Assembly (NCBI GenBank): GCA_963678675.1 | Contig: OY783197.1 | Span: forward strand, 1,956,400-2,020,399 | Direction: 5' to 3' | DNA length: 64,000 bases | Origin: Xiphydria camelus | Lineage: Eukaryota > Arthropoda > Insecta > Hymenoptera > Xiphydriidae | Shown: positions 8,301 through 61,480 of the stretch, piece after piece | Numbering within the stretch: the stretch's first letter is position 1 | How the letters are laid out: the number at the start of each line of letters is the position of its first letter | Program-made: the position numbers and the translations under genes | The notes under the pieces: generated by a model | The model's database searches: none | The model's input: the letters and a program-made list of their open reading frames with translations, nothing else | Told to the model about the DNA's origin: nothing

Positions 8301-9833
8301 AAGGCTCGCGTTACTGCCCTCAACCGCAGAACCGTCTCTATCAGCACCACCACCACCACCACAACCACCACGGCTGTCAGCACAGCGGCGAGCATATGGC
8401 CGAGCAGCGTCACACGTACGGTTCGCCGCGCGAGGAGCGAGAGGGCGAGACGTCGGGTTACGCCAGCGACTCCGTGGAGGCACCCCTGCCGCCGCACCGA
8501 GGTGAGCGCGATGCTCGTTTTCGAAAAACGCCGCGAAAGGGGGATACGACGCGTCTTGCTCTCGCATCGACCGTAGGATTGCTTCCCGGCTGCAAGGCTC
8601 CGGGCACCGAGATCCCCGAAGGTATGTGGCAGAACCAGAAGAATTACCACGGCACGCCCGACAGCTCGCTGCCGCCCTCCAGGCGATTGTCCGCCAGCAA
8701 AGGTGGCGAGTTGAACAGACAGAGATGGGGCAGCATTTGGGGCCAGGACGTCGCGAGGAGCGATCCTCCCCCACCGTCTTGGCTCGAGCGGGGGCTCTCA
8801 CGGCTGGACCATACGAGTCAGGTGAGCCGGGAAGGACGATCTCTGCCCGAAATAATTCGCGGTACACTGAGAGAGATAATTGCTGGTGCTGAGACATGTC
8901 GCCTTCAATCAATAGCACGATAAAATTCCGGGATCGGGCCATGGGTTTCTTTGTGCTCGAAAATATTTGATACGCTCGAGTCGTTGTTTTGTTTCCGCGC
9001 AGAAAGAATTTCTAGTCCCAATGTGTGAGGAATATATACTCTTTGGCTAAGAATTTGCACTCTTATACACTTTTAAGATGATACGTTCTTGGTTTCGGAA
9101 ATATTTTTCGACGATCTTTTATCCACGACTCTTCATCCGCGAGGAACTTGAATGATGTACTTATTTCTTTTTTAAATAACGTGCATTTATGACGATATTA
9201 CATACTCTATATGTCCTTCTCCGGATTTCAAACTACCTCTCTGCCAAATTTCATCAAAGTCGGTTCGGTAGTTTAGCCGTGAAGACGTAACAAACATACA
9301 GACAAACTCGCTTTCGCATTTATAATAATAGTAGTAATAATCCCCAATATATTGCAACATAATCCCTAACATATTGCAGCATCATCTCCAACATATTGCA
9401 GTATAATCCGTAACATATCGGATTATGTTGCAATATGTATAAGGAATTATTTAATATTATAAATGCGAAAGTAAATTTGTCTCCATGTTTGTTACGTCTT
9501 CACGGCAGAACTGCCTAACCGATTTTGATGAATCCAGAAAAGAACGTAGTGTATGTGATAATACGAGTATATATCAAATTATGCCGAACGGATTATTTCG
9601 TATCTCTCCATTATATAAAATAGTTTTTTCGATGCATCAAAAACCCCCGCCGGCTGTGCGTCGCTGCCGTCGCCTCCTCCTCCTCTTCCTCCCACCTTCA
9701 CCTCCTCCCTCCCTCCTCCTCCTCCTCCACCCTCCTCCTCCCTCCTCCTCCCTCCTCCTCCTCCTCTTCCACTTCTTCTTCCTCTTCCTTCTCTTCTTCC
9801 TCTTCCTTCTCTTATTCTTCTCCGTCCTCTTCT

Positions 9834-19977: not shown

Positions 19978-20206
19978 ATCGCTGCTGAAGAAGACCGTCA
20001 CAACTCAAAATTTCAGTAGGAGCATTTAAAGCTTATTACAAATTCAAATTAAAAGCTACTGTAGAATCAGTTGCTGTCTGAATTTAGTGGAAGTCAAAAA
20101 AATTACAGACAACTCATTCTACAATAGCTTTTAATTTGAATCTGTAATAAGCTTTAAATGCTCCTACTGAAATTTTGAGTTGTGACGGTCTTCTTAAGCA
20201 GCGATA
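19978..20206. repeat. Long near-perfect hairpin, arms of about 87 bp
   Basis: Left arm 19981-20067 (GAAGACCGTCACAACTCAAA...AAAGCTTATTACA) and right arm 20117-20203 (inverse order, ending GTGACGGTCTTCTTAAGCAG) differ at only a few positions and enclose a loop of about 50 bp. No open frame. Interpreted as a foldback element. Confidence 0.85.
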
Positions 20207-22249: not shown

Positions 22250-25200
22250 ATGGGTAAGCGCAACGACGGCGATCCCGCGACGCAACGGCGGCGATGCCCA
22301 CCGAAATGCGTACACCCGCTTCGCCCACCGCTCCGCTCAGAAAAAGCACCTGTCAGCGTGGCGATTCTGTTGCTTCCCCTCATTTTTTCGCGTCCCCGTT
22401 CGCAGGTGGCTTGCTCAGTTACTTTCGCAATCTCCTCGGCAGCCGGGAGATGCGGATCCTGATTCTGGGTCTGGACGGCGCGGGGAAGACGACGATTTTG
22501 TACAGGTTGGTTTTGCTCTCGCGCCGCGCGTTCTCGCGTCGATATCGGCACGTAGGCGACGATTGCTCCTGCTTACGAAGCATTCGCGAGCGTCGAAGCG
22601 GCCTCCGACGAGGCCTGCGCGGTTTCCGACAGAGATTCGGTCCGGGTCGATCGCCGAGGTTTAATCGGTTTGTTCGTCAGGTTGCAGGTGGGCGAAGTGG
22701 TCACTACTATACCCACTATCGGGTTCAACGTGGAGCAGGTTACCTATAAGAACTTAAAGTTTCAAGTTTGGGACCTCGGCGGACAGACAAGTATACGGTA
22801 GGTGCTGTTGTTATCGAGGTAGTTCAGCGGTCGGATTCGCGTGTTTTCGCGCGACTTTTCCTGATTTTTCTGCGAATTCGCGAGATTTCACGCGGTTTTC
22901 CAAGTCGTGCAACAATCGTTAATTTCGGGCAATGGTTGATGCGACGAGAAAACTCTGTACGAGTCAAAGAACGAGGATTTCACGTACAGTGGATTCCGGT
23001 TATTCGGTTCATTTTGACCTGATTAAATCAAAGGTACCTACATTCGTTCCACATTGGTTCTTTGAAGCAGAAATAACGCAGGTTAATTAAATACAAAGGC
23101 TTGATTAAAGAATTCCCTGGTCTATTCTCTGGTCTTTCCCTTTCTCAGATCAAATTTTGTAAATATTCTCTGATATTTTTGTTAACGCCGGGAGTTCTGT
23201 ATGATTAAATCAAGAAAGATGTAAATAATTTTAATACAAGAACACGAGGTTGCAAAAACGTTTATCCCGGGCTTCACAGTGCGTCCTCAATTCCCCTTTA
23301 TTCCCTTATTTTTCTTAAATTTCCCCCTCTTCACCCTAAAACTCACAATTTTCCCCCTACAATTCGATATTTTCCCTCTAAAACCACTTATTATTCGGCT
23401 TCTCATTTGAATCTGCCTTTGAATCGTTCTAAATTACGTGAAATGGGTCAAAATGGCAAATTTTTTTTTGCTAAAAAACAATATAACCTACTTCATATCT
23501 ACCTGCATCAATATTTAATCTAAAATATAATAACCTGGTTGAATTAATGTTTCTTGTCAGAAACTCAATTCAACAAATGGTCTCTTTTCCTCAAATCAGA
23601 TTGTGATTGTCATATTTAAGTTACATAATATGAGATATAAATGTTGAAGTTACAAAAACATCCTCCATTCCCTTAATAAATATTAGGGTTTCATCTTAAA
23701 AATTGTTATTTTTTAAAACCACTACACATATCTAATTTTTGGAACATCTTTTTTCATCAAAATTGTCCCTCTTTTTTTGCCCAAAACCCTTATGAAAAAA
23801 TGTATCAACGGTGAAGTTTCGAAAAATTAACTCTACTTTATTTATAATTCCCAGTAAAATTTCAAAATTCCCTGACATTTCCCGGTTTTCCAGGTCTGTA
23901 GCAACCCTATAAAATGAAGGCAAACTCCTGTTTAATGAATATTTAACGAGCAATCGCATGTAGGATTACATATTTATTATTTACGTATGCCGCTTATGAT
24001 CGCACCAGCAACACAGCAAAAAACCCTCTATTCCAGGCTGCCTCCAGAGGCAAAGCTTAGAATAGAGGGTCTCTTCCCTATATTTCGTGCAGGGGGTAGC
24101 TAGTGACCCTTGAATCCTTGGATTTCTAAGAACCACGGAAAAATCCTTGATTTTCCTTGAAGAACCATGCATTTTTTTAAGCGCGTCTAGACTGAAAAGC
24201 AAACGCAAACGAATGCTACCAATGTATTGAGATGATGAGTTCATTTAAGTAGCCTTATAGGTGGAAGCTTCTCGCCAAGATTTCATTATAAAATTGGAAA
24301 TTGCTATTTTGTAAGTCAAACTAAAGATGTCGAAAATGCAATACTTAGTCTTTATAAAACCTTGAAAAATGGTAATTTATAACCTGGAGAAATCCTTGAA
24401 TTTGAAAGCATTGATTCGCTGGCCACTCTTATCTGCACGCGGCAAGATTCCGATAACTGTAGTGGCCTGTATTTTGACAGTGGATCCGGAAAATACAGAG
24501 CGCCACGAATATCGTAATCTCCACAATAGCGGTATAACATATGAGGCTAAACTTACTCGCCAGGAGAGGACCTTCAGTCACGATTATCTCATTATTTATA
24601 AACTTCAGGCCTACATCGATATAAGACTTTGTTGTAGATAAAAATATAATCTCCACAAAGTATTATACAAACATGAGCCAAAAGTTCATAGATAATGAGG
24701 TGATAGTGATTCAAGCTTTCTTCATAGTGAGTAAGTTTACCCTGATGTGATATATGTAGCTCAATCAGGTCAACCAAATTGATATACCATACATCGACTT
24801 GATTCAGTTCTTCAATTTTTAACGCGTAGATAAAAATATAATCTCCAAAAAGTATTATACAAACATGAGCCAAAAGTTCATAGATAATGAGGTGATAGTG
24901 ATTCAAGCTTTCTTCATAGTGAGTAAGTTTACCCTGATGTGATATATGTAGCTCAATCAGGTCAACCAAATTGATATACCCATACATCGACTTGATTCAG
25001 TTCTTCAATTTTTAACGCAAATAACCGGAATCCACTGTACTAAAATTTAGCAGAACCCCGGAATGCCGTTAGGCTAGCGGTACGCTCAAATAATGTTCAC
25101 CTTACAGACCGTACTGGAGATGTTACTATTCGAATACCGATGCGATCATTTACGTAGTAGATTCCGCAGATAGAGATCGGATAGGCATATCGAAAGACGA

Positions 25201-43391: not shown

Positions 43392-44865
43392 GTGTACAAC
43401 TTTGCTTCCGCCGTTTTCCTTCCGCCGTTCGCTTCAAAAGATGACCAGTTTTTTAACGCGAGATTCGTACGCTACCCGAAAGATGCGTTCCTTCAATTTT
43501 CGCAGTGCCTGCATTTTAAATAATCACGGACGAGCCTAACGTACTACTACCGCGATCCGCGAGTTATGCCGCGAAATGACCAGGGCCCCATCCACGCCCA
43601 CGTCAGTGAGAGTCAGCACACAAATATGACACTCTCTCCTTTAATTTTGATCGCGCTATGCATTAAGAATAACTACGGACGAACCTAACGTACTAGTACC
43701 GCGATCCGCGAGTTATGCCGCGAAATGACCAGGGCCCCATCCACGCCCACGTCAGTGAGAGTCAGCACACAAATATGACACTCTCTCCTTTAATTTTGAT
43801 CGCGCTATGCATTAAGAATAACTACGGACGAACCTAACGTACTAGTACCGCGATCCGCGAGTTATGCCGCGAAATGACCAGGGCCCCATCCACGCCCACG
43901 TCAGTGAGAGTCAGCACACAAATATGACACTCTCTCCTTTAATTTTGATCGCGCTATGCATTAAGAATAACTACGGAGGAACCTAACGTACTAGTACCGC
44001 GATCCGCGAGTTATGCCGCGAAATGACCAGGGCCCCATCCACGCCCACGTCAGTGAGAGTCAGCACACAAATATGACACTCTCTCCTTTAATTTTGATCG
44101 CGCTATGCATTAAGAATAACTACGGACGAACCTAACGTACTAGTACCGCGATCCGCGAGTTATGCCGCGAAATGACCAGGGCCCCATCCACGCCCACGTC
44201 AGTGAGAGTCAGCACACAAATATGACACTCTCTCCTTTAATTTTGATCGCGCTATGCATTAAGAATAACTACGGACGAACCTAACGTACTAGTACCGCGA
44301 TCCGCGAGTTATGCCGTGAAATGACCAGGGCCCCATCCACGCCCACGTCAGTGAGAGTCAGCACACAAATATGACACTCTCTCCTTTAATTTTGATCGCG
44401 CTATGCATTAAGAATAACTACGGACGAACCTAACGTACTAGTACCGCGATCCGCGAATTATGCCGCGAAATGACCAGGGCCCCATCCACGCCCACGTCAG
44501 TGAGAGTCAGCACACAAATATGACACTCTCTCCTTTAATTTTGATCGCGCTATGCATTAAGAATAACTACGGAGGAACCTAACGTACTAGTACCGCGATC
44601 CGCGAGTTATGCCGCGAAATGACCAGGGCCCCATCCACGCCCACGTCAGTGAGAGTCAGCACACAAATATGACACTCTCTCCTTTAATTTTGATCGCGCT
44701 ATGCATTAAGAATAACTACGGACGAACCTAACGTACTAGTACCGCGATCCGCGATTTATGAAGCGAAACGACCAGGGCCCTAATACTTTGAATCATAAAT
44801 GTATAACCAGTTTTTTACAATAAAGCCTTGAATTTCGGAAAAACGGCGGAAGCAATGCTGTACAC
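43392..44865. mobile_element. TIR-bounded element whose interior is a 149-bp satellite
   Basis: The left terminus GTGTACAACTTTGCTTCCGC (43392 on) is the inverse of the right terminus GCGGAAGCAATGCTGTACAC (to 44865), both continuing CGTTTT(C). Outside are CTATTA on the left and CTATTG on the right, a possible target duplication. Between the termini almost everything is a tandem array. No transposase. Total about 1.47 kb. Confidence 0.75.
43532..44780 (+). repeat. 149-bp satellite array, about 9 units
   Basis: The landmark GAACCTAACGTACTAGTACC recurs at 43681, 43830, 43979, 44128, 44277, 44426, 44575 and 44724, a constant step of 149, with a variant at 43532. Units differ by single bases (GGACGAACC or GGAGGAACC; CGCGAGTTATG or CGCGAATTATG). 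The first and last units diverge into the element ends. Contains CCACGCCCACGTCAGTGAGA. Units have no shared long frame. Confidence 0.97.
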
Positions 44866-45297: not shown

Positions 45298-45352
45298 GAG
45301 AAATATATATAGAGAGAAAGAGAGAGAGAGAGAGAAAGAGAGGAAAAGAAGA
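45298..45352 (+). repeat. GA-rich microsatellite
   Basis: AGAGAGAAAGAGAGAGAGAG run followed by GA/AAG-rich sequence; about 50 bp of nearly pure purine. Confidence 0.8.
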
Positions 45353-45389
45353 AAAACCATAGGACGTATTCAATTCCAGATTCATTCTC

Positions 45390-46520
45390 GATATGTTCTG
45401 CAAATTTCAAAAATTTGCAGAAGAGTCTCGAGAACTCCTCCGAAATTATACGAACCGTTATGGTCGGGTGCGTGGTGCAACGACCGGCGTCCTCTTCACT
45501 GATGACTTCTTTCTTCTTTCTTCTGGCAAGGCGAAGTCGCAGACGGCTTGCGAAACCGATTGCCACCATGCACCACGCAGCACGGTGTTAGCGACCTCGC
45601 CGTTGCCTCGCCTAACGATCGTTGGAAAACGCGGGCGAGAGCAATGGAACGCAATTTTTAGAGTCTCACGGTGCATTGCTGTACCGTCCCGAAATTTAAT
45701 TGCACGCGAACACGTTTCGTGAGCGCTCCAGGGAGCGATAACGAAACTTCTAAATCGAATTCGCGAGAGGATACCCTTCGCGTGTCCTTGCCTACCGCTT
45801 TTCGAATTCGATGGAAGCCTTCAAACATCGAAATGAAAGCCGCGCGACAACGAAGAATAATCATCTCGCGAGTTCGAGGCGGAAGAGAAAAAGAGACGAG
45901 ACCAACGATCGTTAGCCGCATTAATACTAGCAGCGGGCAAGACTGCAACGGTGCAGTTATTTGAAAATTTATTCAATATCTCGCACTCTCAGTCACACTT
46001 TGGCCAAATTCGCGAACGCGATAATTCGTAGATCGGAGCCCTACCTATCCACCTATATTTAAAAACGATGGCCATAATCGCGAAAAGCCTACCTAACCCC
46101 TGTATATCCAAAAAAACGAACATGCTCACCAACACATTCATACAACATTCGCACGTGGTATGTCCGGTTCCTCCCTCGCCGTGTGAGAAGGGGGAGATTC
46201 TTCCTCAACCCCTTCTCAATTGCTGAAAACGACGCGAAAGACAGATCGGATCGCGCGATTGTCCTATTTTCTATGACTCTACACCGCGACTGCACTTTGA
46301 ATAAATGCTATGGTAGGTTTAGCGGACGACTTTAGCCAATTTATTATTAGCTTTACGGTGATAAAACGGGCGAGAAGCTACCCTGAAAGAATCATAAGAA
46401 AACTCGAATTTTTTAGCTCGACTCGACTCCTGAAAAAAATCCAAGAAAAATAACCGACCGCGATTCAAACGCGCGAAACCAAGCTTTTATGTTGGTTTCC
46501 AAGTGCCACCAGGGATCTGG
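45390..46520 (+). repeat. Left arm of a diverged large inverted duplication
   Basis: Reads in inverse order and orientation against 60580-61480. Matching pieces include GGCGTCCTCTTCACTGATGA, CTCTCAGTCACACTTTGGCC, CTATATTTAAAAACGATGGCC followed by ATAATCGCGAAAA, TACCCTGAAAGAATCATAAG, and CTGAAAAAAATCCAAGAAA. The left arm has about 450 bp (roughly 45.52-45.96 kb) not present in the right. No gene. Confidence 0.82.
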
Positions 46521-46723
46521 CAGCGATTCGAAAAAAAAGTATTTGAGTATTCGCGTACCGCGATCGAGCGAACAAATTTCCCTGATATAAGTTCCGATCG
46601 ATGCGCAGAACGTTCGATGTTTAATTTTCAAAGAAAAGGAGGAATTTCATTACATTCGCGTCCATCGAACGTCTGCGCACCTCGGGCTTAGATCTAAATT
46701 TGCAGCGAAAATTAACGATTTAC

Positions 46724-46953
46724 TTAACCCCTTCAGACCTGGTGTACACGAGAATGCACATTGGATTTTAGCTACTTTATTTAAAAATATTACGCAAAAA
46801 TACAACTGTACTGTTTGCACATAAATATAAGAAAATTAAAAAAAAATAAAGATTTCAAAAATATGTTAAAGTATAATAATACCCCAAAGGCTAAAATATC
46901 ATTAAAAATTTGGTTTACTCCGCGAAAAAAAAAATCAAGTCTGAAGGGGTTAA
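46724..46953. mobile_element. piggyBac-type MITE flanked by TTAA
   Basis: TTAA at 46724-46727 and 46950-46953; ends CCCCTTCAGACCTG and CAAGTCTGAAGGGG are inverted. About 222 bp of AT-rich interior, no coding. Confidence 0.82.
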
Positions 46954-48136
46954 CGACCTGAACATGAAGTGTTCCGCTCCAAGCAATACAATTGGGAGCT
47001 ATTAAATTTCCGCGTATTCCGCTGCAAGTAACACGGACGTCGTTGCACCACGCGAAAAAAAGGATAGTCAGAGGATAGATAATATACGACCATCGCGCTC
47101 TCGGTATTTCGCCAAATCGCGTACCGAGAGACGGTGGAAGAACTTTGACAGCTGGGACTTACTCGGCGATGAGGATCCCCCGATGTCCGTCTCGCGAGAT
47201 ATGGCTCCAATGAAGATCTGAAATAGACGAACGATTGCGATTAGGAAACGCCGTATTTTTCGAACGAAGTTCCGTCGATCGTCTTTCAAATGTCGAGAGG
47301 ATTTTACATTCGATCTGTACTCACCGTGAAATTCACGTGACGGAACCAAATGCCGACGGTCTTCGGTCCAGCCGAAGCTATCGGCCCTCGAAGTCGACTT
47401 TATCTGACAATAGCTCCGGCTACGACAAACGAGCAATTGAATCAATGAGGGAATGTATTTTAAGAGGAATCGAGCAATCATGCGAGAACCGGTAGAATTT
47501 ACGATGAATTGAACATTTTTTTGATAAAAATCATAGTAAAAACAAACGCACAGTGAAAAAACTCGCGAATTAATGACGGCGCTCGAACTGGAATGTAAAT
47601 GTGATTTCAAATGAAAAGAAATTAGAACTTACCACGAAATATTCGTGACGGAGGCCCAGCGACGACAGCCCTTCGCGAAAATCGCAGCTCGGGCCTTGAT
47701 TTCGTCGTCGAATCACAACGTCGTATTTATTACTCGTTCCATCTGAGACAAACGAGTATTCGGATCAACGAAGGAATATAATTTGCGGGAATTCGAGCAA
47801 TATCACGAGAATTTACGGTGAACCGAACGTTGCGTCGATGAAAATCAAAGTTGAAACGTACGCGCGGGGAAAGTTCGAGAACTAACGACTGCGCATCCGA
47901 AATAGCGCGGCGGATAATGCACCAACTTCATGAATTGAGAAATTGTAACTCACCATGAAATACTCGTGATGGAGGCCCAAAGACGACAGCCTTTCGCACG
48001 AATCGAAGCCGAGGCCTCGTATTCGTCGTCCTTTGCTGGACATTGCGTCCTTGATTCACTCCGTCTGCAACAATTAAACGATTCCGACCGTTGTATTTCT
48101 TTCGAACGGAACGACAGCACGAGAACTGACGGTCTC

Positions 48137-48291
48137 TGCGCAATAGAAGGAATAGCTATGGAACGAGGAACGGAAGCCAGCGCTCTCCACCAATCACATC
48201 ACTGCTTTAGCAAAGGATGCTCTAAAGCAGTGATGGGATTAGTCGAGAGCACTGTTCTGTTTCCCGCTCATTATTCTTCCTATTGCACAAG
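48137..48291 (+). ncRNA. Candidate hairpin RNA (pre-miRNA-like or foldback)
   Basis: The apex stem ATCACTGCTTTAG / CTAAAGCAGTGAT closes an 11-nt loop (about 48211-48221). Pairing continues with scattered mismatches through GCGCTCTCC/CGAGAGCAC and out to GCGCAATAGAAGG / CCTATTGCAC, about 75 bp per arm. Size and mismatch pattern are compatible with a primary microRNA, but a small foldback element would look the same. I do not recognise a known microRNA. Confidence 0.4.
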
Positions 48292-49127
48292 TTTCTAATA
48301 AATAACGCGAATGATAACCTGCGATTCACATCGACAAAATGTTCGAAATGAATATCCCATTTGTACGAAGAAAACTTGAAAGCGCGATGATATTCCCAAA
48401 ACGATAAACGCGTTTCAATTTAACCAATGCACAATCGCAGAACGCTTCCGGGATCTCTCTATTATATAAAATAGTTTTCTCGATGCATCGAAAACCCTCG
48501 CCGGCTGAGCGTCACTGCCGTCGCCGATACAATGTTCTATTATTATGCAACCGCGATAAGACTGCGTCGTGAGGTGACTGCGTCGTGAGGTGACCGCGCC
48601 GGTAAACACGACGACGCTCAGCCGGCGGTATTTCTTTACGCGTCGAAGAAACTATTGGTACGAAGAAAACTTGAAAGCGCGATGATATTCTCAAAACGAT
48701 AAACGCGTTTGAATTTAACCGATGCACAATCGCAGAACACTCCCGGGATATTGAAATAAAATAGTAGGTACCTACTCACCACATAAGACTCGTGACGGCG
48801 CTCAAACGTCGACAATCCGCGGTTTGGATATGTCGATCCCCGAAGTCGACTTCCTGTGCTCTCCGTCTGCGATCACGGAATAATTGCGCGATCAACGAAA
48901 TGATTTATTTCAGGAGAAAACGACGGACGACGAGAGACCGCGATAAAATCAACGATAAAAAACGTTCGGATCGAATTCACGTACGAAGACGAACTGCGCA
49001 GAGAGAAATTTTTCGAACGAATTCGACCGACGACGCGAGAATCGACATTGTATAATAAGCCGATGTTCGAATCATTAGACAACAAGATTTTAAATTCGCA
49101 CTGGAAATGAGGAGCTCGCATGCAAAA

Positions 49128-49660
49128 TCGGATACATCCACTTTTACAAGTTTTTCAGGAGATAAGAAAAACACTCTACATATTTATTACCCACAACGGG
49201 CACCGTTATTATTCGTATACATAGAATACCATGGGTCCGGGGTCTGTCGGACCCCACGGAAAGTTCCACGGAAACCCCTTCGAAGGTTAAAAAAAACTTG
49301 GCGTTATTGGCAAAAAAACATTGGATATATCCGGTTTTGCACACAAATCAAACACATAGAGTAAAAAAATATTAATTTCGTTTAAATAAACGAAACAAGT
49401 AAGCTATTCAAGTAGTAGTTGCAAAAAGAACAAAAGAAATTAAATATGTATTGCCGTCTCTTCGTCCAGGCGAAATTTGGATATAACCGGTTTTGCTCCA
49501 AATGTGTCGAAATTCACTTAACAATATTAAAGGGATTTATACGGTTTTGGCTGTAGACGAATATATGTACCTATAGATATCACGCGCGCGCGCGACCTAC
49601 ACTCGGAAACCACCAAAACAAGATTTTGTGTGAAAAGTGGATATATCCGGTTTTGCACTC
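49128..49660 (+). repeat. Spaced GGATATATCCGGTTTTGCA motif
   Basis: GGATATATCCGGTTTTGCA occurs at about 49322 and 49640, GGATATAACCGGTTTTGC at about 49479 and a weak version ATCGGATACATCC at about 49130; spacing is roughly 160-190 bp. It lies between two of the exon-like modules. Meaning unknown. Confidence 0.6.
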
Positions 49661-50339
49661 GAACTCCTCAAATAATCTCGAAGCGATTTGAATTGGAGCG
49701 ACGCACGAAAAACGGATTGCACGCGGATATACGTTTCGAAAGGAATCGGTCGACGACGCGAAAGCCGATAACTTCTATGATAAGCAGATTTTCGAGTCCG
49801 CGAATCGATCGAATTATTGCAGAAATATATAACACTCACCACACATGGTGCTCGTGACGGAACCCTAGTCCACGACGCAGCCGAAGCCCGGGCGTGTAGT
49901 GGACTTTTCATCCTCCTTCGCTCCGCCTGCGACGGAGAACAAAAACTACGATTAGAGACGACCGCGTTTACCCGAGGAAATCGCTCGACGAAGCAAAGCT
50001 CCACGAAAATAGAAGCCGAAACTCTAGAATTCGCTCCGAGCCGGTCGAATCGACACGGAACGCGTTTCAAGGATATCGAGTCATCGCGAAACACAGAAAC
50101 ACATCGCGATCACATTAACACATCGTAGAAACACATCGCGAACATCGAATCATCGCGAAACACAGAGAAAGCGGGAGAAAATGAAATCTCACCGGAAATC
50201 TCCGTCGGAGATGCAAAAACCGGCCATCCTTGGTCGAGCCGGGCACTCGGTCTTCGCTCGTCTTCTTCTCTCTTCTTTTCTTGACCCACCCACCCATCCC
50301 ACCCTTCCTCCTATCGCGCCCGGATTAAACGGCGCAAGA

Positions 50340-50720
50340 GGCGACTAAAAAGTCACCCTACGCGGAATATTCCGGGGGCCCTGGGCCCCACACCCAGGCT
50401 CCTTGGCTCGGCATCGCAACCCGTGAATGCTTTCCTCGCATTCGCCGGGCCCACGGCTCTCGCCGATGCCCCAAAACGTCTCGAACCGTGCTAACGATTG
50501 AGCCTGATGCAGCAGATGACCGAGACAAGGAGGGGGAGCACCTCCTGTAGGAAGCCAGATAAAAAGCGTCCCACCGTGTTACCAGTGGGCTGACAACCCT
50601 TGGGAGACTCCGCCGAATTCGCCGCTGCGTTCGGTAATATACTTCAGCGTACAGGTGTTCGGGAGTGGGGGAACGAAGATTCTCGAAGATGCGCGAGCGA
50701 GAGAGCAATGGAAGACCGCG
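50340..50720. other. GC-rich segment upstream of the exon-like modules
   Basis: A CpG- and GC-rich block (CCGGGGGCCCTGGGCCCCAC, GGCTCGGCATCGCAACCCG with GGCTCTCGCCGATGCCCC) just 5' of the minus-strand module series. It could be the promoter of a minus-strand transcript or a retroelement fragment. No protein remnant seen. Confidence 0.3.
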
Positions 50721-50959
50721 AGTGCGAGTGAGAAAACGCTACAGAACTACGACCAGCTCAGTTAATGTCCAACACATAGAGTCTCCGTGTACGTGTGCTT
50801 ACCCAAGGCTCGAAATTTTTGTTGTGATATCGTATGACTTTCAATTCGCAATAATAAGGGCATTCCGTTTACTCAAGCTACGAGACGTTTGGAAAATTTT
50901 ACAACAGAACCTGACTTCTTTTAAAATATAATAAACGCACGTACGATACTAAACGATAA

Positions 50960-51540
50960 TTGAGGTAGCACTATGAATTCACAGGACGATACTGATGATC
51001 TGCTAAGATGCACTGAGCTGTGCACGCCTTTGCAATCATCTGCAAACGTCGTTGTATCGTAGAGATCAGAATTGCAGCGAAATACATTGATTATAGATAC
51101 AAGCACGTTTGCAGGAATGAGGAACGATGCAGATATCGCTCGGTACATCTTGGAAGCTCGTTGCACATCTCTACAAACATCGCCGTGTCTAGTCAGAGCA
51201 TTCCTATGCAATCCCCAGAAGCTACGATACAAATGACATGTACAGAAATGTTTGACGAACTTCTAGATATACAGAGCTGCATGCGTTCGTCGTATCCTAG
51301 ATGTAAGAATTGCAGCGAAATGCATCTACTATAAGACGAATGCTTGCAGACACACGCAACAAAATGCTTGCATATAACTCGGTGCACCTAGAAGTTCGTT
51401 GAACGTTTCTGCAAACGTCATTTGCATCATAGCTGCCGGGATTGCACAGAAATGCATCGACTTGACACGACGACGCTTGCAGAGATATGCACCGAGCTGT
51501 ATGCAAGCATCATTGCACGTTGAGAAATGCATCGTTGATC
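50960..51540. repeat. Degenerate tandem/inverted array with GCAGCGAAATGCAT core
   Basis: (A/T)TTGCAGCGAAAT(A/G)CAT appears near 51073 and 51312 with related versions at 51445 and 51520. GCAAACGTC and GCTTGCAGA/GTTTGCAGG recur, and TGCACCGAGCTGTATGCA is palindromic. Frames on the minus strand repeat cysteine/histidine-rich peptides, but shift and stop. A decayed minisatellite is most likely. Confidence 0.5.
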
Positions 51541-51689: not shown

Positions 51690-54600
51690 CCTCCAAAAGG
51701 CATCGAACCATTTGCCGAACGACTTGGAATGTCCGATAATTCGATAAAATAGTTGAAGAAGTACTCGTATTATGCACCTACTACATGGAGTTAGAAAAAA
51801 CGCTTGGCTGTATCGTACCGATGTCGCTGGGCAACGATTACAAGCCTATTTTATATTTTATACGTTAAAATTGTATCCCTGTAAAATCTAGAAATATTCA
51901 TCGCGTTACTACACGTGCGCATTTGATATCGCTCGGGGAATCGAAAAAACATGTAATACAATCCGAAAAAGCTCAGGAATCTTCCAGGTTTTGTGGTTTG
52001 CCGTGATTGATAAAATTATTTTTCTATGGTATTTCATAAAGGTACATTAAACTCGTCTCCCTCGGCATCAAACTACCAGATGGTAAACACACGGACACGG
52101 GTTTCAATGTGTACGAAAGTGGGGGAGAGATCTTCCGAGCGTAATACAATAGAAGTAGGCGTGACTTCGCTCGGTTGTGGAATTTCCAATGTCCCTCTAT
52201 CGTTCTCTCGTTCGCACCCGTGGCGATATACAGGGTGGTTCAGGTTAATCGTCATTAATTCTCACGAAAGATTAGACGAACGACCATCTCACCTTATATT
52301 TTCTTATTTGTCTCGATTAGCCGAATAATTTTTATATAAACGAAAATTTTGAGTTCCAATTAAAAAAACTACAATGACTTTTGTATCTCATAAACGACGA
52401 ACTTTTTTCAAAATGCATTGCATGCGATGCATGCCGTCCTCGAAACCAAATGACTTTTACTCGAAAGATTTTTTCGTCAAGTGATCAATAATGGAAACAA
52501 ACCCAATTCTTTCTCGCCCAGGCTAGCCGATTATTGGGAATCAATGATTTCATTCAGAATAGTATGGAGACCGAGCCGCTCTCGCTTTCACGGTCAAAGA
52601 TTCGTTATGCAGGGTTACTGACCAGAGCTGACCAGCAGCCGACCAACCGACTGCACTCACAATCAGTAAGTCAGTAGGTAGGCGGCCCGGCGAATTAAAA
52701 ATTGTACAGGAGGAGACTATACGAGATATCGCAGTCGGATAAATTGCATTCCGATTAGCGCCTAGGAATGCTTCATTGTCGGGATTTTCAAAGCCTTTGT
52801 CATGGGCTACGATTATGCAACGGAATCTGAGAGAAAGATATAGCAAGCCAACCCCCCGTCGAGATTTTGCAAGGTTTTGGTCTAATCATTTCGGTTGACT
52901 CAAAAGAGCGAATTAGCTAATTGTAAATGCAAAGATAGTGCTGCCTAGCGTTTCGAGTAGCTCCTATTGATTCATCGTTAGAATTTTCACAGTTTGGAGA
53001 CTCCGATCATTGTTACAATCTTTTATAGAGGAAGGAGGATATGATTTTGGTAGGTACGCGAAAAGGAGGCGAGTTTGAATACCGAAGATTATGATCTCTG
53101 CGCGATGCTACGCATCGAAGGTCAATGTAATTATGGCATTCTTTATTAGAATATCGTACATCGGATAAGAATAATGCGGTACGATTCATTTCAACGATTT
53201 GGAATATTGGAGAACGCGATGAAACAGTCAGGGAAGTCGCATAATATGCGAGTTAACGCATTCGTAAACTAACAGCAAGCGCAAAAGATTTGTTTAAATC
53301 TTGATCTTTCCCTTCCTGTTACTCGAAATTATGGATCTTCTACGCGAAGTTACACGAAACGCTCGGCTGCATCGTACCGATGTCGTCTGGCAACGATTAC
53401 AAGCGTATTTTATGCTTCAAATGTTAAAACTGTATCCCTGTAAAGTCAAGAAACATTCATCGAGTTCCGTATGCAATTAATATTGCTCGAGGTATTACAA
53501 AAACATTCGTTTCAATCCGAAAAGCCCAAGAATCTTCCAGACAGTTTTCAAAACTCGTCGTGATTTATAGACATTATTTCCCTATAGTATTTCGTAGAGT
53601 TTCGTTAAAATCGTTCTCCTCGATGCAAAATTGCCAGACGTAAACACACGGACACGGGTTTCAATGTGTACGAAAGTGGGGGAGAGATCTTCCGAGCGTA
53701 ATACAATAGAAGTAGGCGTGACTTCGCTCGGTTGTGGAATTTCCGATGTCCCTCTATCGTTCTCTCGTTCGCACCCGTGGCGATATACAGGGTGGTTCAG
53801 GTTAATCGTCATTAATTCTCACGAAAGATTAGACGAACGACCATCTCACCTTATATTTTCTTATTTGTCTCGATTAGCTGAATCATTTTTATATAAACGA
53901 AAATTTTGAGTTCCATTTAAAAAAACCAATGATTTTTGTATCTCATAAAGGACGAACTTTTTTCAAAATGCATTGCATGCGATGCATGCCGCCCTCGAAA
54001 CCCAATGACTTTTACTCGAAAGATTTTTTCGTCAAGTGATCAATAACGAAAATAAACCAATTCTTTCTCGCCGCTCTCGCTTTCACGGTCAGAGATGCGT
54101 TGTGCAGGGTTACTGACCAGAGCTGACCAACAGCCAACCAGCCGGCTGCACTCACAATCAGTAGGTCAGTAGGTAGGCGGCCCGGCAAATTAAAAATTGT
54201 ACAGGAGGGAGACTATACGGGATATCACAGTCGGATAAATTGCAATCCGATTGGCGCCTAGGAATTCTTTATTGTCGGGATTTCCAAAACCTTTGTCATG
54301 GGCTACGATTATGCAACGGAATCTAAGAGAAAGATATAGCGAGCCAACCGTCGAGATTTTGTAAGGTTCTGGTCTAATCATTTCGGTGGACCCAAAAGAG
54401 CGAATTGGCTAATTGTAAATGCAAAGATAGTGCTGCCTAGCGTTTCGAGTAGCTCCTATTGATCCATCGTTAGAATTTTCACAGTTCGGAGACTCCGATC
54501 ATTGTTACAATCTTTTATAGAGGAAGGAGAATATGATTTTGGTAGGTACGCGAAAAGGAGGCGAGTTTGAATACCGAAGATTATGATCTCTGCGCGATGC

Positions 54601-56710
54601 TACGCATCGAAGGTCAATGTAATTATGGCATTCTTTACTAGAATATCGTACATCGGATAAGAATAATGCGGTACGATTCGTTTCAACGATTTGGAATGTT
54701 GGAGAACGCGATGAAACAGTCAGGGAAGTCGCATAATATGCGAGTTAGCGCATTCGTAAACTAACAGCAACCGCAAAAGATTTGTTTAAACCTTGATCTT
54801 TCCCTTCCTGTTACTCGAAATTATGGATCTTCTACGCGAAGTTACACGAAACGCTCGGCTGCATCGTACCGATGTCGTCTGGCAACGATTACAAGCGTAT
54901 TTTATGCTTCAAATGTTAAAACTGTATCCCTGTAAAGTCAAGAAACATTCATCGAGTTCCGTACGCAATTAATATTGCTCGGGGTATTGCAAAAACATTC
55001 GTTTCAATCCGAAAAGCCCAAGAATCTTCCAGAGAGTTTTCAAAACTCGTCGTGATTTATAGATATTATTTCCCTATAGTATTTCGTAGTTTCGTTAAAA
55101 TCGTTCTCCTCGATGCAAAATTGCCAGACGTAAACACACGGACACGGGTTTCAATGTGTACGAAAGTGGGGGAGAGATCTTACGAGCGGAGTACAATAGA
55201 AGTAGGCGTGACTTCGCTCGGTTGTGGAATTTCCGATGTCCCTCTATCGCTCTCTCGTTCGCACCCGTGGCGATATACAGGGTGGTTCAGGTTAATCGTC
55301 ATTAATTCTCAAGGAAGATTAGACGAACGACCATTTTACCTTATATTTTCTTATTTGTCCCGATTAGCTGAATAATTTTTATATAAACGAAAATTTTGAG
55401 TTCCATTTAAAAAAACTACAATGATTTTTGTATCTCATAAACGACGAATTTTTTTCAAAATGCATTGCATGCGATGCATGCCGCCCTCGAAACCAAATGA
55501 CTTTTACTCGAAAGATTTTTTCGTCAAGTGATCAATAACGAAAATAAACCAATTCTTTCTCGCCGCTCTCGCTTTCACGGTCAGAGATGCGTTGTGCAGG
55601 GTTACTGACCAGAGCTGACCAGCAGCCGACCAACCGGCTGCACTCACAATCAGTATGTCAGTAGGTAGGCGGCCCGGCGAATTCAAAATTGTACAGGAGG
55701 GAGACTATACGAAATATCGCAGTCGGATAAATTGCAATCCGATTGGCGCCTAGGAATTCTTCATTGTCGGGATTTCCAAAAACTTTGTCATGGGCTACGA
55801 TTATGCAACGGAATCTGAGAGAAAGATATATCGAGCCAACCGTCGAGATTTTGTAAGGTTTTGGTCTAATCATTTCGGTGGACTCAAAAGAGCAAATTGG
55901 CTAATTGTAAATGCAAAGACAGTGCTGCCTAGCGTTTCGAGTAGCTCCTATTGATTCATCGTTTGAATTTTCACAGTTCGGAGATTCCGATCATTGTTAC
56001 AGTCCTTTATAGAGGAAGGAGGATATGATTTTGGTAGGTACGCGAGAAGGAGGCGAGTTTGAATACCGAAAAGTATGACCTCTGCGCGATGCTACGCATC
56101 GAAGATCAATGCGATTATGGCATTCTTTATTAGAATATCGTACATCGGATAAGAATAATGCGGTACGATTCGTTTCAACGATTTGGAATGTTGGAGAACG
56201 CGATGAAACAGTCAGGGAAGTCGCATAATATGCGAGTTAACGCATTCGTAAACTAACAGCAACCGCAAAAGATTTGTTTAAACCTTGATCTTTCCCTTCC
56301 TGTTACTCGAAATTATGCATCTTCTACGCGAAGTTACACGAAACGCTCGGCTGCATCGTACCGATGTCGTTGGCAACGATTACAAGCATACACTATGCTT
56401 CAAATGTTAAAACTATATCCCTGTAAAGTCAAGAAACATTCATCGAGTTCCGTACGCAATTAAAATTGCTCGGGGTATTGTAGAAACATTCGTTTCAATC
56501 CGAAAAGCCCAAGAATATTCCAGAGTTTTCAAAACTCGTCGTGATTTATAGCCCCTATAGTATGTCGTAGAGTTTCGTTAAAATCGTTCTCCTCGATGCA
56601 AAATTGCCAGACGTAAAACACGGACACGGGTTTCAATGTGTAAGAAAGTGGGGGAGAGATCGTACGAGCGTAGTACAATAGAAGTAGGCGTGGCTTCGCT
56701 CGGCTACGGA
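51690..56710 (+). repeat. Tandem array of about 1.5-kb units, three full periods
   Basis: The landmark ATCGTACCGATGTCG falls at about 51815, 53373, 54865 and 56358, steps of about 1558, 1492 and 1493. CACGGACACGGGTTTCAATG falls at about 52090, 53647, 55138 and 56622. Units are nearly identical over most of their length. The first unit has an extra 65 bp or so (52526-52590) absent from the others. Each unit contains TACAGGGTGGTTCAGGTTAA, GCATTGCATGCGATGCATGC, and GCGATGCTACGCATCG. Frames of about 100 codons are conserved between units only because the DNA is. Homology ends abruptly at about 56710. Confidence 0.95.
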
Positions 56711-56719
56711 ATACATTGT

Positions 56720-57560
56720 GACTATCTACACCGTCTATCGACATCTCTGTCGACTGCACGATGCGCGTATCGTGCCCTCTCGCTCGCTACAGTTTGTGCG
56801 CCTTCGAACGGCTCCGGTTTTCCCCAAAACGCCTCTCCGCGAAGGACATTTGCGCGCGCAGCGGCGATTTCGGAGAAGTCTCCCAAGGGTGAATCTAGCC
56901 CCGCGCCAATGTCACGTTCCGAAGAAGAACCGCAGTTTCGCCGGTTCCTTCGACGCACACGCACCTTCGGCTTGGCGCGGGGAATCGGACCCTGAATTCG
57001 CGGATAAGCGGTATCGACGCGGCAGGAGGATATCGCGCGGATTTATCCCCGGAGAGACAATGAGGCGATCCTGCGGGGAACGAGCGGCTCGGCGTGCCTT
57101 GCGAGCCGAGATACCGACGCGGTGAGAAGAACACCTCCTCGTCGGCCATTCTAAGACGGTCTCGGGTTTCAAGAAAATTTCTTCGCGTCGCGTTTTCTTT
57201 TTGCGACGGGAGAAGCGTATTCGTCGGTCGTTTCGTCGCATTCGGGTCACGGTGTCGCGTCGAAACTCACGACACGGAGAGACGTAAAATCGCGGAGAGG
57301 CGGGCAGTTTCATCGGTAGTCATTTCCACGCGTCGCAAAGTGGCTTCGAAGCTCGTGGCAAGGGAAACGATTTCATTGAAGCGTTGATACGAAGTGGTGC
57401 AGAAGATCGCGTGAAAATTTTTCATTTTACTAGAGACAGTGACGGACTTTGTCGCCCTTCGCGTTTATAAAAAATTCTACAACAGTCGGGATGCTGCGGA
57501 GAGAACTCCGCACGAAGATGCTGCGTGGGGGATGCAGTAGGCAGAAGCAAAATCGAGAGC
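56720..57560 (+). promoter_or_regulatory. CpG-rich block, possible promoter and 5' exon of an unidentified gene
   Basis: Starts where the 1.5-kb array stops. Highly CpG-rich, with open frames in several registers on both strands, as expected of composition. CGACGCGGTGAGAAG near 57120 is a plausible splice donor. No protein family recognised. May be the 5' end of a gene whose coding exons are outside the window. Confidence 0.3.
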
Positions 57561-58440
57561 TCGTTTCATATCAAGAATGCCAAGACCAATGCTACAGCTG
57601 CTGCGGTTGTACACGCGACGAATAACTAACGGTAATAATTATTGCAATTTTTGTCACGTTCAGGGATTTTTTGAGGGATTTCGAAATACGGGTAAATCGT
57701 ATCGATGTTCGAGAATAAAAGTTTCTATGCATTTTTTCGAGTATCGCAAGGGGAGCGATGCAACGAGCGTGCACTCTGATGTGTTATAAATTAATTTCCA
57801 TCTTTGAGTGTAAAAATTTCGCTGCTATTTTGAAAATACACGCTCTGCTTGTAGCTGAATATTCGGGGATCCTGGAAAATCTGGAATTTCGTTGAGAAAT
57901 TTTATATTCCATGGAAAAACGCGACGTGAAGCTTGGAGAATTTTCTAGGCTTACACATAATTCGTTGCTCTACATAATCATGTAATTTCTTTCAGCTATT
58001 TCGAACTGAATCGAGATTTTGATTCTTCCGATAAATTCGGCTTTCCCATAATTTTTTTCTTATTGCAGATTCAAAAAATTTAGACAGTTATTTATCCCCT
58101 ATTTATTTAATTTTTTATTTTCGTATTTATTTAAGCTGCAAAATAACATTTAAGGATGCAGCTGTGGTATCGTGCTGTAAGACTATCTCTCTCACATTCG
58201 TTGCATGACTTATAACTGCGAATAATTATTCTTTCGAACGTCTTTCTCTTCGTGCGATATCGAATACGTATATTATTTTAAACTCAATTTAAAAATAGCA
58301 ATATTTATTTTATGGGAAGACCGCATTGAATAAAATTACATAGAGTACCTCTTCGTACTCTAAAACAGGCCCGGGTTTATTTTTATTCGTTTCATCGTTC
58401 AACGCTGAACATTGCGATACTTTGTTTCGAGCGTGTCGTA
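57561..58440. other. AT-rich sequence, nothing recognised
   Basis: Possible intron or intergenic sequence following the CpG-rich block. No frame over 75 codons and no hairpin noticed. Confidence 0.4.
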
Positions 58441-58444
58441 TCTA

Positions 58445-59275
58445 CATCCTGCGATTCGGATTCTGTCGCTGGTGACTTTTTTAAAATGTTATTTTTAACC
58501 CTTACAAGCACGGTGGCATATTGAATATGCCACCTAGATTATCATCATAATTCTTTGAACATGATGATGATTACTTTATTTGACTGACCTTATTTCCATA
58601 AACATAGTTGCCCTTCAGGTTTTTGGGGTCGTTGATTTCAAATTTGCTATCAGATTTTCAAAATTCAAAATGGCGGATCCAACATGGCGGACCAAATTTG
58701 TAAAATTGACTCCGATCATGGTGAAAATTGGTATACATGGATTTTTGGAGTCGCTGATTTCGAATTTGCTATTAGATTTTTAAAAGTTAAGATAGCGGAT
58801 CCAATATAGCGGACAAAAGTACCGAAGTTAGTACCGAGTCAACTTCGGTACTTGTGTCCGCTATATTGGATCCGCTATCTTGACTTTTAAAAATCTAATA
58901 GCAAATTCGAAATCAGTGACCCCAAAAACCCATTTATACCAATTTTCACCATGATCGGAGTCAGTTTTACAAATTTGGTCCGCCATATTGGATCCGCCAT
59001 TTTGAATTTTGAAAATCTGATAGCAAATTTGAAATCAGCGACCCCAAAAACCTGAAGAGCAACTATGTTTATGAAAATAAGGATATCAAGAAAATGTGTG
59101 CTTCAAAGGGTTAAACGAACTAACCAGTGATTAATCAATCCTCATCCTTTCATTAACGAGAGTAGACGCCACCGTAGCTAATGAAGGCATGAGAATTAAT
59201 TGTTCATTGGTTAGTACGTTCAAAAATAATATTTAAAAAAGGTCACCAGCGACAGAATCCGAGTCGCAGGGTATA
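58445..59275. repeat. Nested foldback: long palindrome within TTAA-flanked ends within outer inverted arms
   Basis: Outer arms CGGATTCTGTCGCTGGTGAC (58457 on) and GTCACCAGCGACAGAATCCG (to about 59262) are inverted. Inside, TTAA at 58495-58498 and 59111-59114 bracket ends CCCTTACAAGCAC and TGTGCTTCAAAGGG. Inside that, 58592-58834 is almost the exact inverse of 58838-59079 (GGCGGATCCAACATGGCGG, GATCATGGTGAAAATTGGTA), arms of about 240 bp with virtually no loop. A small hairpin follows at 59117-59222. No gene. Confidence 0.9.
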
Positions 59276-60580
59276 GTAGGTATAGTGAGAGAGTGGAGCG
59301 CGCCTCATAGCCGAGTCGCATCGATCAACAGGTAACGGCAGCTGTTTAGCTCGCAGCGGTAGGGTATGCTATTTCAGCACGGTCTGGCGTATCGGGTGCG
59401 CGCTCTCGTTTCCCGCTCCCTGCTTGCGATTCCCTTTTGCTTTTCCGAGAAAATTGTTGAAGTACATAGAACGACTAGAGACACTGTCGGAAATCCATTT
59501 CGAAGACCGGAGAGCTTCGCGAACCGGGAGAACGATCGTGGCGCTCGTGAATCTTTTGAGAAAACTTGCCAAAAATTTTAGAAGTTTCTCGCCACGTTCG
59601 TTTCCTCGCGTATTTCAATCAGCCACACCTCGGACTCACAGTTGTTCTGTTCTTTGTGCAGTGGACTTTGGATTACCGTGTTACGTCGGAGCAAGAACGG
59701 CGGTGGCTGTAATCGTCATCGGTGAGTGCCCCATTCAGATTTCCTCAAACCGACTTTCGGTACGCGAAATGACGCGCTATACCGAAATCGGTTCGTTGTA
59801 TATGCCTTTTCTTCGCTCATTCTATCCCTTTCTCTGTGTGGCGCGACGATAACACTTTAGGGGATTTGCAGCGAGACGCGTTTTGGAAAGATACTTTTAT
59901 ACTCAGTTTTTTACATTTTTCTCGTTCGCTATTTGGATAACTGCTGTCGAAAACTCGCTGCAAATATAATTGCGAGGTGGTATCACCGTTCGACGCTCGC
60001 GTATTAATTGAACTCGAGAAATCAAAAGTCGATAACTGGTCGAACGGTGAATACTTCTTTGTGTAGATGAATTCGAGAGGATTGTTTGTCAGGGAAATTT
60101 GTTCGTTTCGCGGGACGCGTTGTCGATTTGTATTGTTGCTTCTTGAACTGTTGGAAAAATCGCCACAGCCCCCTTAAGAGGGGCTGAAACATGGCGATGG
60201 AAAGAAAAGAGCCGATTTGTATTATGGTGCTGGTAGCGGAACCCTTTTCATTTCTTATCATCTGGACTTGAATTTTTCTATAAAATATTGAAGAACTCGA
60301 TTTGTAGCGGCATTTTGATTGGAGCAGTCTATATTTGCCTTTCATTTCAATGAAATTTGTCTCGTTACATAATTGTAAAATACGCTCTCTTCAATAAAAA
60401 TCGAGTTTCAAAGAGATACTCAATTATTTTTATATCATCACTCGAAGAAATGTAATAATCGAAAGCTCGTTAACGCTTCTAATATTGATTGCTTTACTTC
60501 GTTTTTTCTTACATTTTCATAACTTTCGAATGAACGACGTGTTACTTTTCTCATTTGCCTAGAAAATCCTGATCGCTACC
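59276..60580. other. Moderately CpG-rich sequence, no gene recognised
   Basis: Frames of 70-142 codons (for example 59424-59852, plus) show no family features and have no convincing splice sites. GCAGCGAGACGCG and CGCTCTCG phrases suggest promoter-like composition at 59.3-59.8 kb, but nothing specific can be named. Confidence 0.35.
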
Positions 60581-61480
60581 AGTTCTATACGGGCTCTTTG
60601 AAAATCGCGGTAGCTTCGTTTCTTGGATTTTTTTCAGGGTCAGATATCTACTTTGCTTATGATTCTTTCAGGGTAACTTCTCAGCTCGTTTTATACCTTC
60701 ATCCTAAAACTAATAATAGGGACTAAAGTTCAACCGATAAACCCATTAGCAATTGTCCTTCTTTGGACGATCGATAGAGTCACGGTTTAGAGTCCGTAGC
60801 TTAAAAAATCCGCGATTCCGTGTATCTCTTTCGCGTCGTATTGCAGCTGCTGCGAGGGGGTGGAGGCGAGATCTCCCCCCTCGACACTGGATCATCACCG
60901 AAGATCTACATTAGAGAATGATTGTCGAGACGAATGCATGCATCAGTGCGAATGTCCGAATTTTTTGTATATAGGTACTCTCGCTGATTTTCGCGATTAT
61001 GGCCATTCGTTTTTTTTAAATATAGCTGATTAGTAGGGTTCGTTGAATCTCAACGCATTTTTTTTGGGCCAATGTATGCTTGAGAGTGTGACCGATCAGA
61101 GTCTGCTTCGGGCGGATTGGTCTTTAGTACTTCAAGATCGCGAGAATTTCGTCTCTGTTATTTATTGCTAACGATTTCTCGTAACTCGGTGTTTGAAGAT
61201 TCCTCCGAACTCGAGCGATCGTCGAGCAATGAAACGTGACGAATTACTCGGACGCACAGGAAGAATCTCATCAGTGAAGAGGACGCCGTTCGTCGCGCCA
61301 CACTCTTACCGTACGTCGCGTAAAATTTCCGAGGATCTTCTGAAATTTTCCGCCAAGTTCTTGACACTGGGGGATCGTTTCAGAATTGACTCTGGAATTT
61401 TTGTGTCGCACGGATCTTCTTGCACTATCCTTCTCTCGTACTGTCGCTTGTCTTTCTCTAGTGGGCTTGCGAGAGTGAAT
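60581..61480 (-). repeat. Right arm of the large inverted duplication
   Basis: Inverse partner of 45390-46520. Shared pieces on this side are TCTTGGATTTTTTTCAGG, CTTATGATTCTTTCAGGGTA, TTTCGCGATTATGGCCATTCG, GGGCCAATGTATGCTTGAGA and TCATCAGTGAAGAGGACGCC. Diverged by substitutions and indels. Confidence 0.8.

Follow-up and report, generated by a model that had tools for sequence, protein, structure and literature searches.

A dispersed family of putative spliced non-coding RNA genes with tandemly duplicated module exons in Xiphydria camelus

A 64,000-nucleotide stretch of the genome of the hymenopteran Xiphydria camelus (GCA_963678675.1, contig OY783197.1, positions 1,956,400 to 2,020,399; C21:1956400-2020399 in our contig numbering; hereafter the window) carries on its minus strand a row of similar exon-like segments, each followed directly by a strong splice donor. 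This raises the question of whether such a row belongs to a protein gene, a mobile element, a small-RNA precursor or a non-coding RNA gene. Comparison of the segments with each other, with an inverted relative in the same window and with copies elsewhere in the genome points, with somewhat better than even confidence, to a family of spliced and structured non-coding RNA genes that is dispersed through the genome and in which the middle exons are tandem duplicates of one folded module. The module-bearing gene of the window, a predicted spliced non-coding RNA gene, is referred to as M (45300-50740, minus strand, with provisional ends) and its inverted relative as P.

The original prediction had described five to seven segments of 79-111 nt with a shared core, a CAG in front and GTGAGT or GTAAGT behind. 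Segments of this kind were present, but only five carry the core, with lengths of 87-111 nt, and these are accompanied by one shorter exon without it. On the minus strand they are E1 (49926-49840, 87 nt), E2 (48866-48780, 87 nt), E3 (48064-47954, 111 nt), E4 (47742-47633, 110 nt) and E5 (47419-47325, 95 nt), followed by the core-less E6 (47217-47163, 55 nt), the donor of which is homologous to position 59722 of P. The core, the preceding AG and the GTRAGT immediately after the last exon base were found at the predicted positions in E1 to E5, as was the donor of E6. GTRAGT occurs six times on the minus strand of 46500-51500, exactly at the donors of E1 to E6, and 22 times on the minus strand of the whole window. 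A pattern derived from the core, from which E1 is too divergent, matched the window four times with up to three mismatches, compared with a mean of 0.00 in 100 shuffled sequences. A profile built from the five modules recovered all five (E ≤2.8e-20 in 64 kb); the next match, at 50265-50189, was marginal (E 0.32) and ends at the donor of E0, the probable first exon.

Exon similarity among E1 to E5 exceeded that of shuffled sequences in nine of ten pairs (z-scores of 3.0-17.5), the remaining pair, E1/E2, reaching a z of 1.5, whereas 17 of 20 comparisons of the flanking introns stayed below 1.5. The exceptions were the upstream flanks of E4/E5 (z 13.1) and E2/E5 (4.2) and the downstream flanks of E3/E4 (3.3); E3 and E4 represent a recent tandem duplicate of exon plus intron. 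E6 did not resemble the other exons (z -1.1 to 0.8). The repeat coincides with the exons and mostly ends at the splice sites, as in FIRRE-like RNAs. Exons that are alike between mostly dissimilar flanks, together with the splice-site constraint in 18 copies described below, support, at the level of sequence, the tandem exon duplication with retained splicing, in a modular non-coding RNA, that had been proposed. A small nucleolar RNA (snoRNA) host gene was considered and is not supported, because the introns are mostly unlike each other and no snoRNA was found at the Rfam cut-off.

The introns hold further elements. Intron 1 contains a DNA-transposon-like insert of 561 bp with inverted ends of about 38 bp (49109-49669). 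With a gap fraction of 0.667, roughly two in three of the 18 aligned copies lack this insert. A near-perfect hairpin (48150-48280, minus strand, z -8.43) lies in the intron before E3; it scored 27.4 bits against Rfam mir-2067, below the cut-off of 70, and is lost along with E3 in three copies. A further inverted repeat, at 48470-48656, resembles a miniature inverted-repeat transposable element, and 48453-48525 is 92% identical to 9602-9674.

It was then considered whether the modules are mutually exclusive or otherwise alternative protein exons, as the original prediction had allowed. E3 and E4 encode similar peptides in one frame (EGLSSLGLRHEYFV and ERLSSLGLHHEYFM), and in the window copy an open reading frame (ORF) of 95 amino acids runs over E0 to E2, the first part of which recurs in many copies. 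However, these 95 residues lie within the 95% bound of 101 obtained by shuffling, and when the ORF was searched against a protein collection that covers Hymenoptera, none of the 3 candidates reached E 1. Mutually exclusive exon clusters, which form a comparable row of similar exons with their own splice sites, keep length and frame, so that their members stay interchangeable in the protein. Neither is kept in M. The module lengths of 87, 87, 111, 110 and 95 nt differ by non-multiples of three, and they also vary between copies, being 85-87 nt for E1, 87-94 nt for E2, 108-112 nt for E3, 109-111 nt for E4 and 95-98 nt for E5 when the splice sites of the window are applied. Because of these length differences no reading frame is kept, in line with the earlier remark that frame is not uniformly preserved, and the longest spliced ORF of each of the 18 copies (45-116 amino acids) falls in differing frames and exons. 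Coding scores are weak from POLD1 to the end of the window, and ten ORFs between 41 and 64 kb gave no Pfam match at 0.1. Protein exons are therefore a very improbable explanation of the row.

The module region is not confined to the window. When the 3.1-kb region was searched against 357 Mb of the genome in 38 contigs, 126 matching pieces were obtained, which were joined by hand to at least 39 copies, that of the window included, and one fragment on contig C14. This number is a lower bound since 40 of 225 candidates were scored. Copies were found on ten contigs (C1, C6, C10, C14, C17, C20, C21, C22, C24 and C28), with identities to the window of about 84-98% for the pieces that make up the other full copies. 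What had been put forward as an undescribed unit of this window thus consists of real modules, but it is one member of a dispersed multicopy family that includes an inverted, module-free paralogue at 56.8-61.5 kb. Seven other copies, examined with their flanks, share stretches of about 10 to 28 kb in varied arrangement. A 149-bp satellite was present in all seven, and P or parts of it were found in C21b, C28a (twice) and C21c and not seen in C24a, C10a, C20a and C6a, for each of which 20-30 kb were examined. Where checked (four copies), the copies sit between differing ordinary genes, namely EF-Tu at C21b, a P450 at C24a, a C2H2 zinc finger and a zinc-binding dehydrogenase at C10a, and POLD1 and a sub-threshold ZIP-like ORF at the window copy. 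Thirty-two of 38 copies (the C14 copy left out) are no more than 6 Mb away from a contig end, compared to 14.4 expected, an enrichment that may be biased because the scored candidates were the best ones.

To compare the copies site by site, the module region was aligned for 18 of the at least 39 copies, the window included, leaving out 21 copies and the C14 fragment. At the splice sites (AG, GT and +3 to +5) only one of 42 positions was variable, whereas 26.8% of 1639 intron sites were (Fisher 5.6e-5). The sole change is GT to GC in E2 of C20b (GCGAG). AG and GTGAG are kept in all 18 copies for E1; E2 keeps AG in 18 and GTGAG in 17 of them. E3 is absent from three copies (C20a, C17b and C6b, which form one clade in the tree), and its AG and GTGAG are kept in the remaining 15. 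The donors of E4 (GTAAG), E5 (GTGAG) and E6 (GTAAG) are intact in 18 of 18. E0 is also conserved, with 13 of 108 sites variable compared to 26.8% in introns (P 4e-4) and an invariant donor GT. The original prediction had named donor substitution at the neutral rate as one of the observations that would speak against splicing; the rate found among the copies favours it.

These data bear on the main rival explanation, that M is a selfish amplified element, be it mobile and non-autonomous or of another sort, and that its splice sites and hairpins are kept by the spread of the element itself and not by any use to the host. Such an element would account for dozens of copies at unrelated places, 84-98% identical to the window, for composite units of varying arrangement, about 10-28 kb long and marked at two joints by palindromic elements, and for the lack of any recognised host gene inside the unit. 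However, neither shared inverted termini nor target-site duplications were seen by eye at the unit ends inspected, which vary between copies, and no Pfam transposase or polymerase was recognised in the ten ORFs tried, a subset of those of the unit; an autonomous partner may lie elsewhere in the genome. Moreover, dead copies should lose their splice sites at the intron rate, which the 18 aligned copies have not done. Retention of splice sites and of the 3' block (see below) after dispersal, with no frame kept, is more in keeping with non-coding genes that function than with repeats that have died, and we regard a selfish element as possible but unlikely. A palindromic element was also noted at 19978-20206, relatives of which lie where the M match stops and the P match starts in C21c and C28a.

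Besides the modules, M comprises conserved parts at both ends. Matches to the window stop at 50737-50760 in five of the seven fetched copies, and the adjacent 5' block (50596-50707, minus strand) is 68% identical to 56773-56890 of P (E 1.15e-9); it is likely the promoter or transcription start region of M. The probable first exon E0 (50193-50300, minus strand, 5' limit set by the query) has the donor GTGAGA and matched the module models only weakly by sequence (E 0.0049), without gain from structure (10.9 bits, E 1.4). A hairpin (47090-47137, minus strand) that is also found in P lies close behind the E6 donor, in the following intron. The probable terminal exon (45300-46429, minus strand, 3' end provisional) follows polypyrimidine-AG acceptors before 46429 and 46382, which are common to P at 60638 and 60672; the terminal acceptor AG is kept in seven of eight M copies and falls within a deletion in the remaining one, C20a. 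A terminal exon at 47021 with an AATAAA at 46781 had been considered and was dropped because of these conserved acceptors in P. Downstream, a stretch of 127 nt (45436-45562, minus strand) is identical in all eight full M copies, the window included (P 5e-10 where 15.5% of the other sites of the alignment vary, with an effective number below eight because window and C21b are near-identical). In the same eight copies, seven of 91 sites are variable in 45365-45455, and five of the 13 downstream invariant runs of at least 22 nt overlap blocks common to P. A 149-bp satellite array (43519-44780, 8.5 copies, 98%, no strand assigned) lies downstream of M.

P (56773-61460, plus strand) is an inverted, module-free paralogue that is collinear with M in homologous blocks (E 2.5e-39 to 1.2e-9). 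These pair 50707-50596 with 56773-56890 (68%), 47176-47040 with 59712-59849 (67%), 46465-45981 with 60603-61091 (66%, E 2.5e-39) and 45514-45308 with 61258-61460 (69%, E 5.5e-20). The parts of P are the 5' block (56773-56890), an exon (59662-59721), a terminal exon from 60638 or 60672 and a 3' hairpin (61309-61413), and GTRAGT occurs only once on the plus strand of 56.7-61.6 kb, where it corresponds by homology to the donor of E6. Neither profile nor structure-model searches gave a convincing module match in P within the window. In 30 sources, all 86 module matches were module exons of the 18 M copies and none lay inside a P region; 87 were expected, E1 of C20b being missed. The modules were thus either inserted or expanded amid a shared gene plan, or P has lost them. 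Both inverted arms and their spacer form the amplified unit of the window (39852-63418, no strand), the whole of which recurs in copy C21b (C21:2503609-2525684) at 96.8-98.3% identity; the 5.6 kb that follow the window on its right side bear no match to the unit, their matches being confined to interspersed repeats in the left part of the window. The spacer (51762-56712, no strand) contains units repeated in tandem, each about 1490 bp long, and is related to what lies upstream of P and of M in other copies. P further contains a 495-bp palindrome (58588-59082) that is 94% self-complementary.

Comparison of the modules revealed a common helix of 6 bp, termed H2, with the arms GUCCAC/GUGGAC in E1, GUCGAC/GUCGAC in E2, GUCGAC/GUCGGC in E5 and GACGAA/GUCGUC in E3 and E4, where the arms are sequence-aligned and the last pair is broken. 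In H2, 28 of 30 cells are paired, with two double-compensatory positions, which is the best of 289 placements; this degree of pairing was reached in 0.1% of 5000 column permutations, with anchors chosen by eye. An alignment of the 86 module matches, 63 of them distinct, gave a covariation score of 0.225 compared to 0.130 (standard deviation 0.007) in shuffles (0 of 500 as high) and at most 0.051 when slid, and 39 cells with double changes compared to 15.2 (0 of 500); the double changes trace back to few module-level events. Models built from E2 to E5 also gave E1 a higher score with structure (28.7 bits) than without (13.4 bits). A shared module helix with compensatory differences is thus predicted and partly borne out, with mixed support from covariation.

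Further hairpins were predicted outside the modules. That after E6 comprises 35 nt identical in all ten M copies inspected, and its stem recurs in four of four P copies with a C-G to U-A difference (fold z -2.74 in M, -3.48 in P). The terminal-exon hairpin, GAGAAGGGG..CCCCUUCUC (46185-46217, minus strand), is predicted in both M and P with two double-compensatory differences read by eye, and the 131-nt pieces containing it are only slightly more stable than shuffles (z -1.48 and -0.88). A long, precursor-like 3' hairpin (45355-45465, minus strand) has a fold z of -6.41, and its homologue in P one of -4.90. Consensus energies fell below those of column shuffles by 2.2-3.8 standard deviations in four of five M/P blocks (z -2.7 for E6, -3.7 for the terminal hairpin, -2.2 for the terminal exon and -3.8 for the end block), while the fold of the 5' block was no better than its shuffles (z -0.3). 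By these predictions the 3' and post-E6 hairpins appear, in part, conserved as structures.

The strength of the 3' hairpin raises the alternative that M is a small-RNA precursor, in which this hairpin, and perhaps that after E6, would be the product and the module exons a spliced leader. It is the strongest fold among the folded pieces common to P, and the 127 invariant nucleotides run into it. Such a precursor leaves the duplication of the module exons unexplained, and Rfam microRNA scores of the 3' hairpin did not exceed 26.5 bits against cut-offs of 60-100. The stem of a usual animal microRNA precursor is also shorter than that of the M hairpin, and we consider a small-RNA precursor rather improbable.

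Several results weigh against a family of structured non-coding RNA genes. No Rfam match at the gathering cut-off was obtained in the 64 kb, and E-value searches of three stretches gave sub-threshold rows only. Folded singly, the modules gain little over shuffles (z 0.06, 0.50, -3.15, -1.03 and -1.96), and a basal helix and a donor-side hairpin, tried as covarying helices, pair well without covariation in the five window modules. The higher score of E1 with structure corresponds to a small gain in E-value, from 2.3e-3 to 1.3e-4, between models scored in different modes, and the test was not blind because the structure was written after all five modules, E1 included, had been seen. The alignment of 86 matches was itself fitted to the structure, and in the two measures least misled by relatedness it did not exceed shuffles: three pairs had a double change compared to 3.5 (476 of 500 shuffles as high), and 14 pair types were counted compared to 13.6 (265 of 500). 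In none of the five M/P blocks did double-compensatory counts clearly exceed column shuffles; the highest, 8 of 41 pairs in the end block, was reached by 11% of them. As to constraint, singletons alone give a weaker contrast (1 at splice sites, 227 in introns, P 0.036), and the module exons do not evolve significantly slower than introns, either by variable sites (23.7% of 539 compared to 26.8%, P 0.17) or by nucleotide diversity (P 0.11).

With these points counted, dispersed, spliced and structured non-coding RNA genes remain the reading we favour, if modestly. In the model that follows from it, RNA polymerase II would start near 50.7 kb, and splicing in the cell would join E0 to four or five duplicated exons of about 85-112 nt, each module folding around the shared helix with the conserved core beside the donor. 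Next would come E6 and then a long terminal exon, which carries two hairpins that are conserved; the intron between these two exons holds a third. In its mature form the RNA would offer several copies of one domain, adjoining a fixed 3' structured part, for repeated binding of protein or ribonucleoprotein, and might act in the nucleus. We infer the multivalent protein binding because of the analogy with the RRD exons of FIRRE (PMC4820808) and the stem-loops of roX (PMC4719309) as portrayed in the cited passages. Blocks of about 10-28 kb, containing the gene, the satellite and sometimes the inverted P, would have spread by segmental duplication, mostly near contig ends, with the gene copies staying under selection afterwards.

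The remainder of the window contains ordinary genes, i.e. TMEM188, CCDC66, an ARF-type GTPase and POLD1, the best relatives of the last being hymenopteran (Ampulex compressa, 84%). Beyond the right edge of the window, the neighbouring gene shows a sub-threshold similarity to ZIP zinc transporters, scoring 29.4 bits where the cut-off is 35.1. CpG observed/expected was 1.2-1.6, which, along with the relatives of POLD1, marks the genome as hymenopteran. Three coding-looking ORFs on the plus strand between 15428 and 18945 (at 15428, 16915 and 18280) had no Pfam match. At 24634-25018 a 192-bp unit is repeated in tandem, its two copies being 99% alike; the repeat lies in a dispersed inverted-repeat family also found near 7.6, 13.6, 14.8 and 26.1 kb.

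Long non-coding RNA (lncRNA) genes have mostly been studied as single loci under weak constraint, which makes the function of their structures and repeats hard to test. Here, one genome offers dozens of natural variants of one apparently spliced non-coding gene, and a module number of four or five together with a module-free paralogue allows the selected parts to be read directly. If transcribed, they would constitute a structured RNA family with modules bounded by splice sites. The clustering near contig ends points to a role at the scale of chromosomes or to spread by way of subtelomeres. It is conceivable, albeit doubtful, that they form an undescribed class of high-copy structured lncRNA genes, with dozens of dispersed, individually constrained copies near chromosome ends, each made up of duplicated folded exons in a row, a fixed domain of 3' hairpins, the 149-bp satellite and, in some cases, an inverted partner gene, and possibly with a chromosome-wide job such as the organisation of subtelomeres or heterochromatin in a haplodiploid insect.

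How M relates to known systems was considered last. Scans with the core pattern gave one contig in bacterial and archaeal genomes (L001:2571-2592), about what chance predicts (own estimate about 2), and no match in viral contigs. The roX box, GTTNTACG, occurs five times in the window compared to 8.56 expected and nowhere within 45300-50740. Drosophila roX is, unlike the M family, a pair of genes. What M would have in common with roX is an lncRNA function based on repeated stem-loops, the number of which matters in roX (PMC4719309).

ANTSR, the sex-determining lncRNA locus of Aculeata, also resembles M, being a spliced lncRNA of Hymenoptera within a stretch that lacks protein genes, and a local orthologue would fit the long stretch without recognised protein genes around a spliced lncRNA-like gene, the more so as orthology of ANTSR, according to the relevant part of PMC12799146, needs no sequence homology. 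ANTSR is, however, a single locus with other neighbours, lying between CRELD2 and THUMPD3 with COPA and miR-315 nearby (passages of PMC12799146 and PMC12594375) and having two exons in Osmia and four in Linepithema (in the part cited of PMC12594375). M is multicopy and, at the copy of the window, sits by POLD1 and the ZIP-like ORF instead, which makes an ANTSR orthologue the most improbable of the explanations considered here.

An lncRNA with exonic local repeats is a known kind. FIRRE, which was compared by its organisation and not by sequence relation, resembles M in that a local repeat recurs as whole exons of one non-coding RNA; the RRD makes up seven of 13 human and 11 of 23 mouse exons, and the passages cited describe FIRRE as one locus (PMC4820808). 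The absence of a conserved protein frame holds for M as well. A dispersed multigene family of lncRNAs with splice-bounded modules was not found in the open-licence literature searched, a weak hint that the family may be new. In M the repeat is not restricted to one locus but occurs in at least 39 copies, and the family further differs from FIRRE by its dozens of dispersed genes, by modules of 85-112 nt with a shared helix, and by a module-free paralogue and a conserved 3' block.

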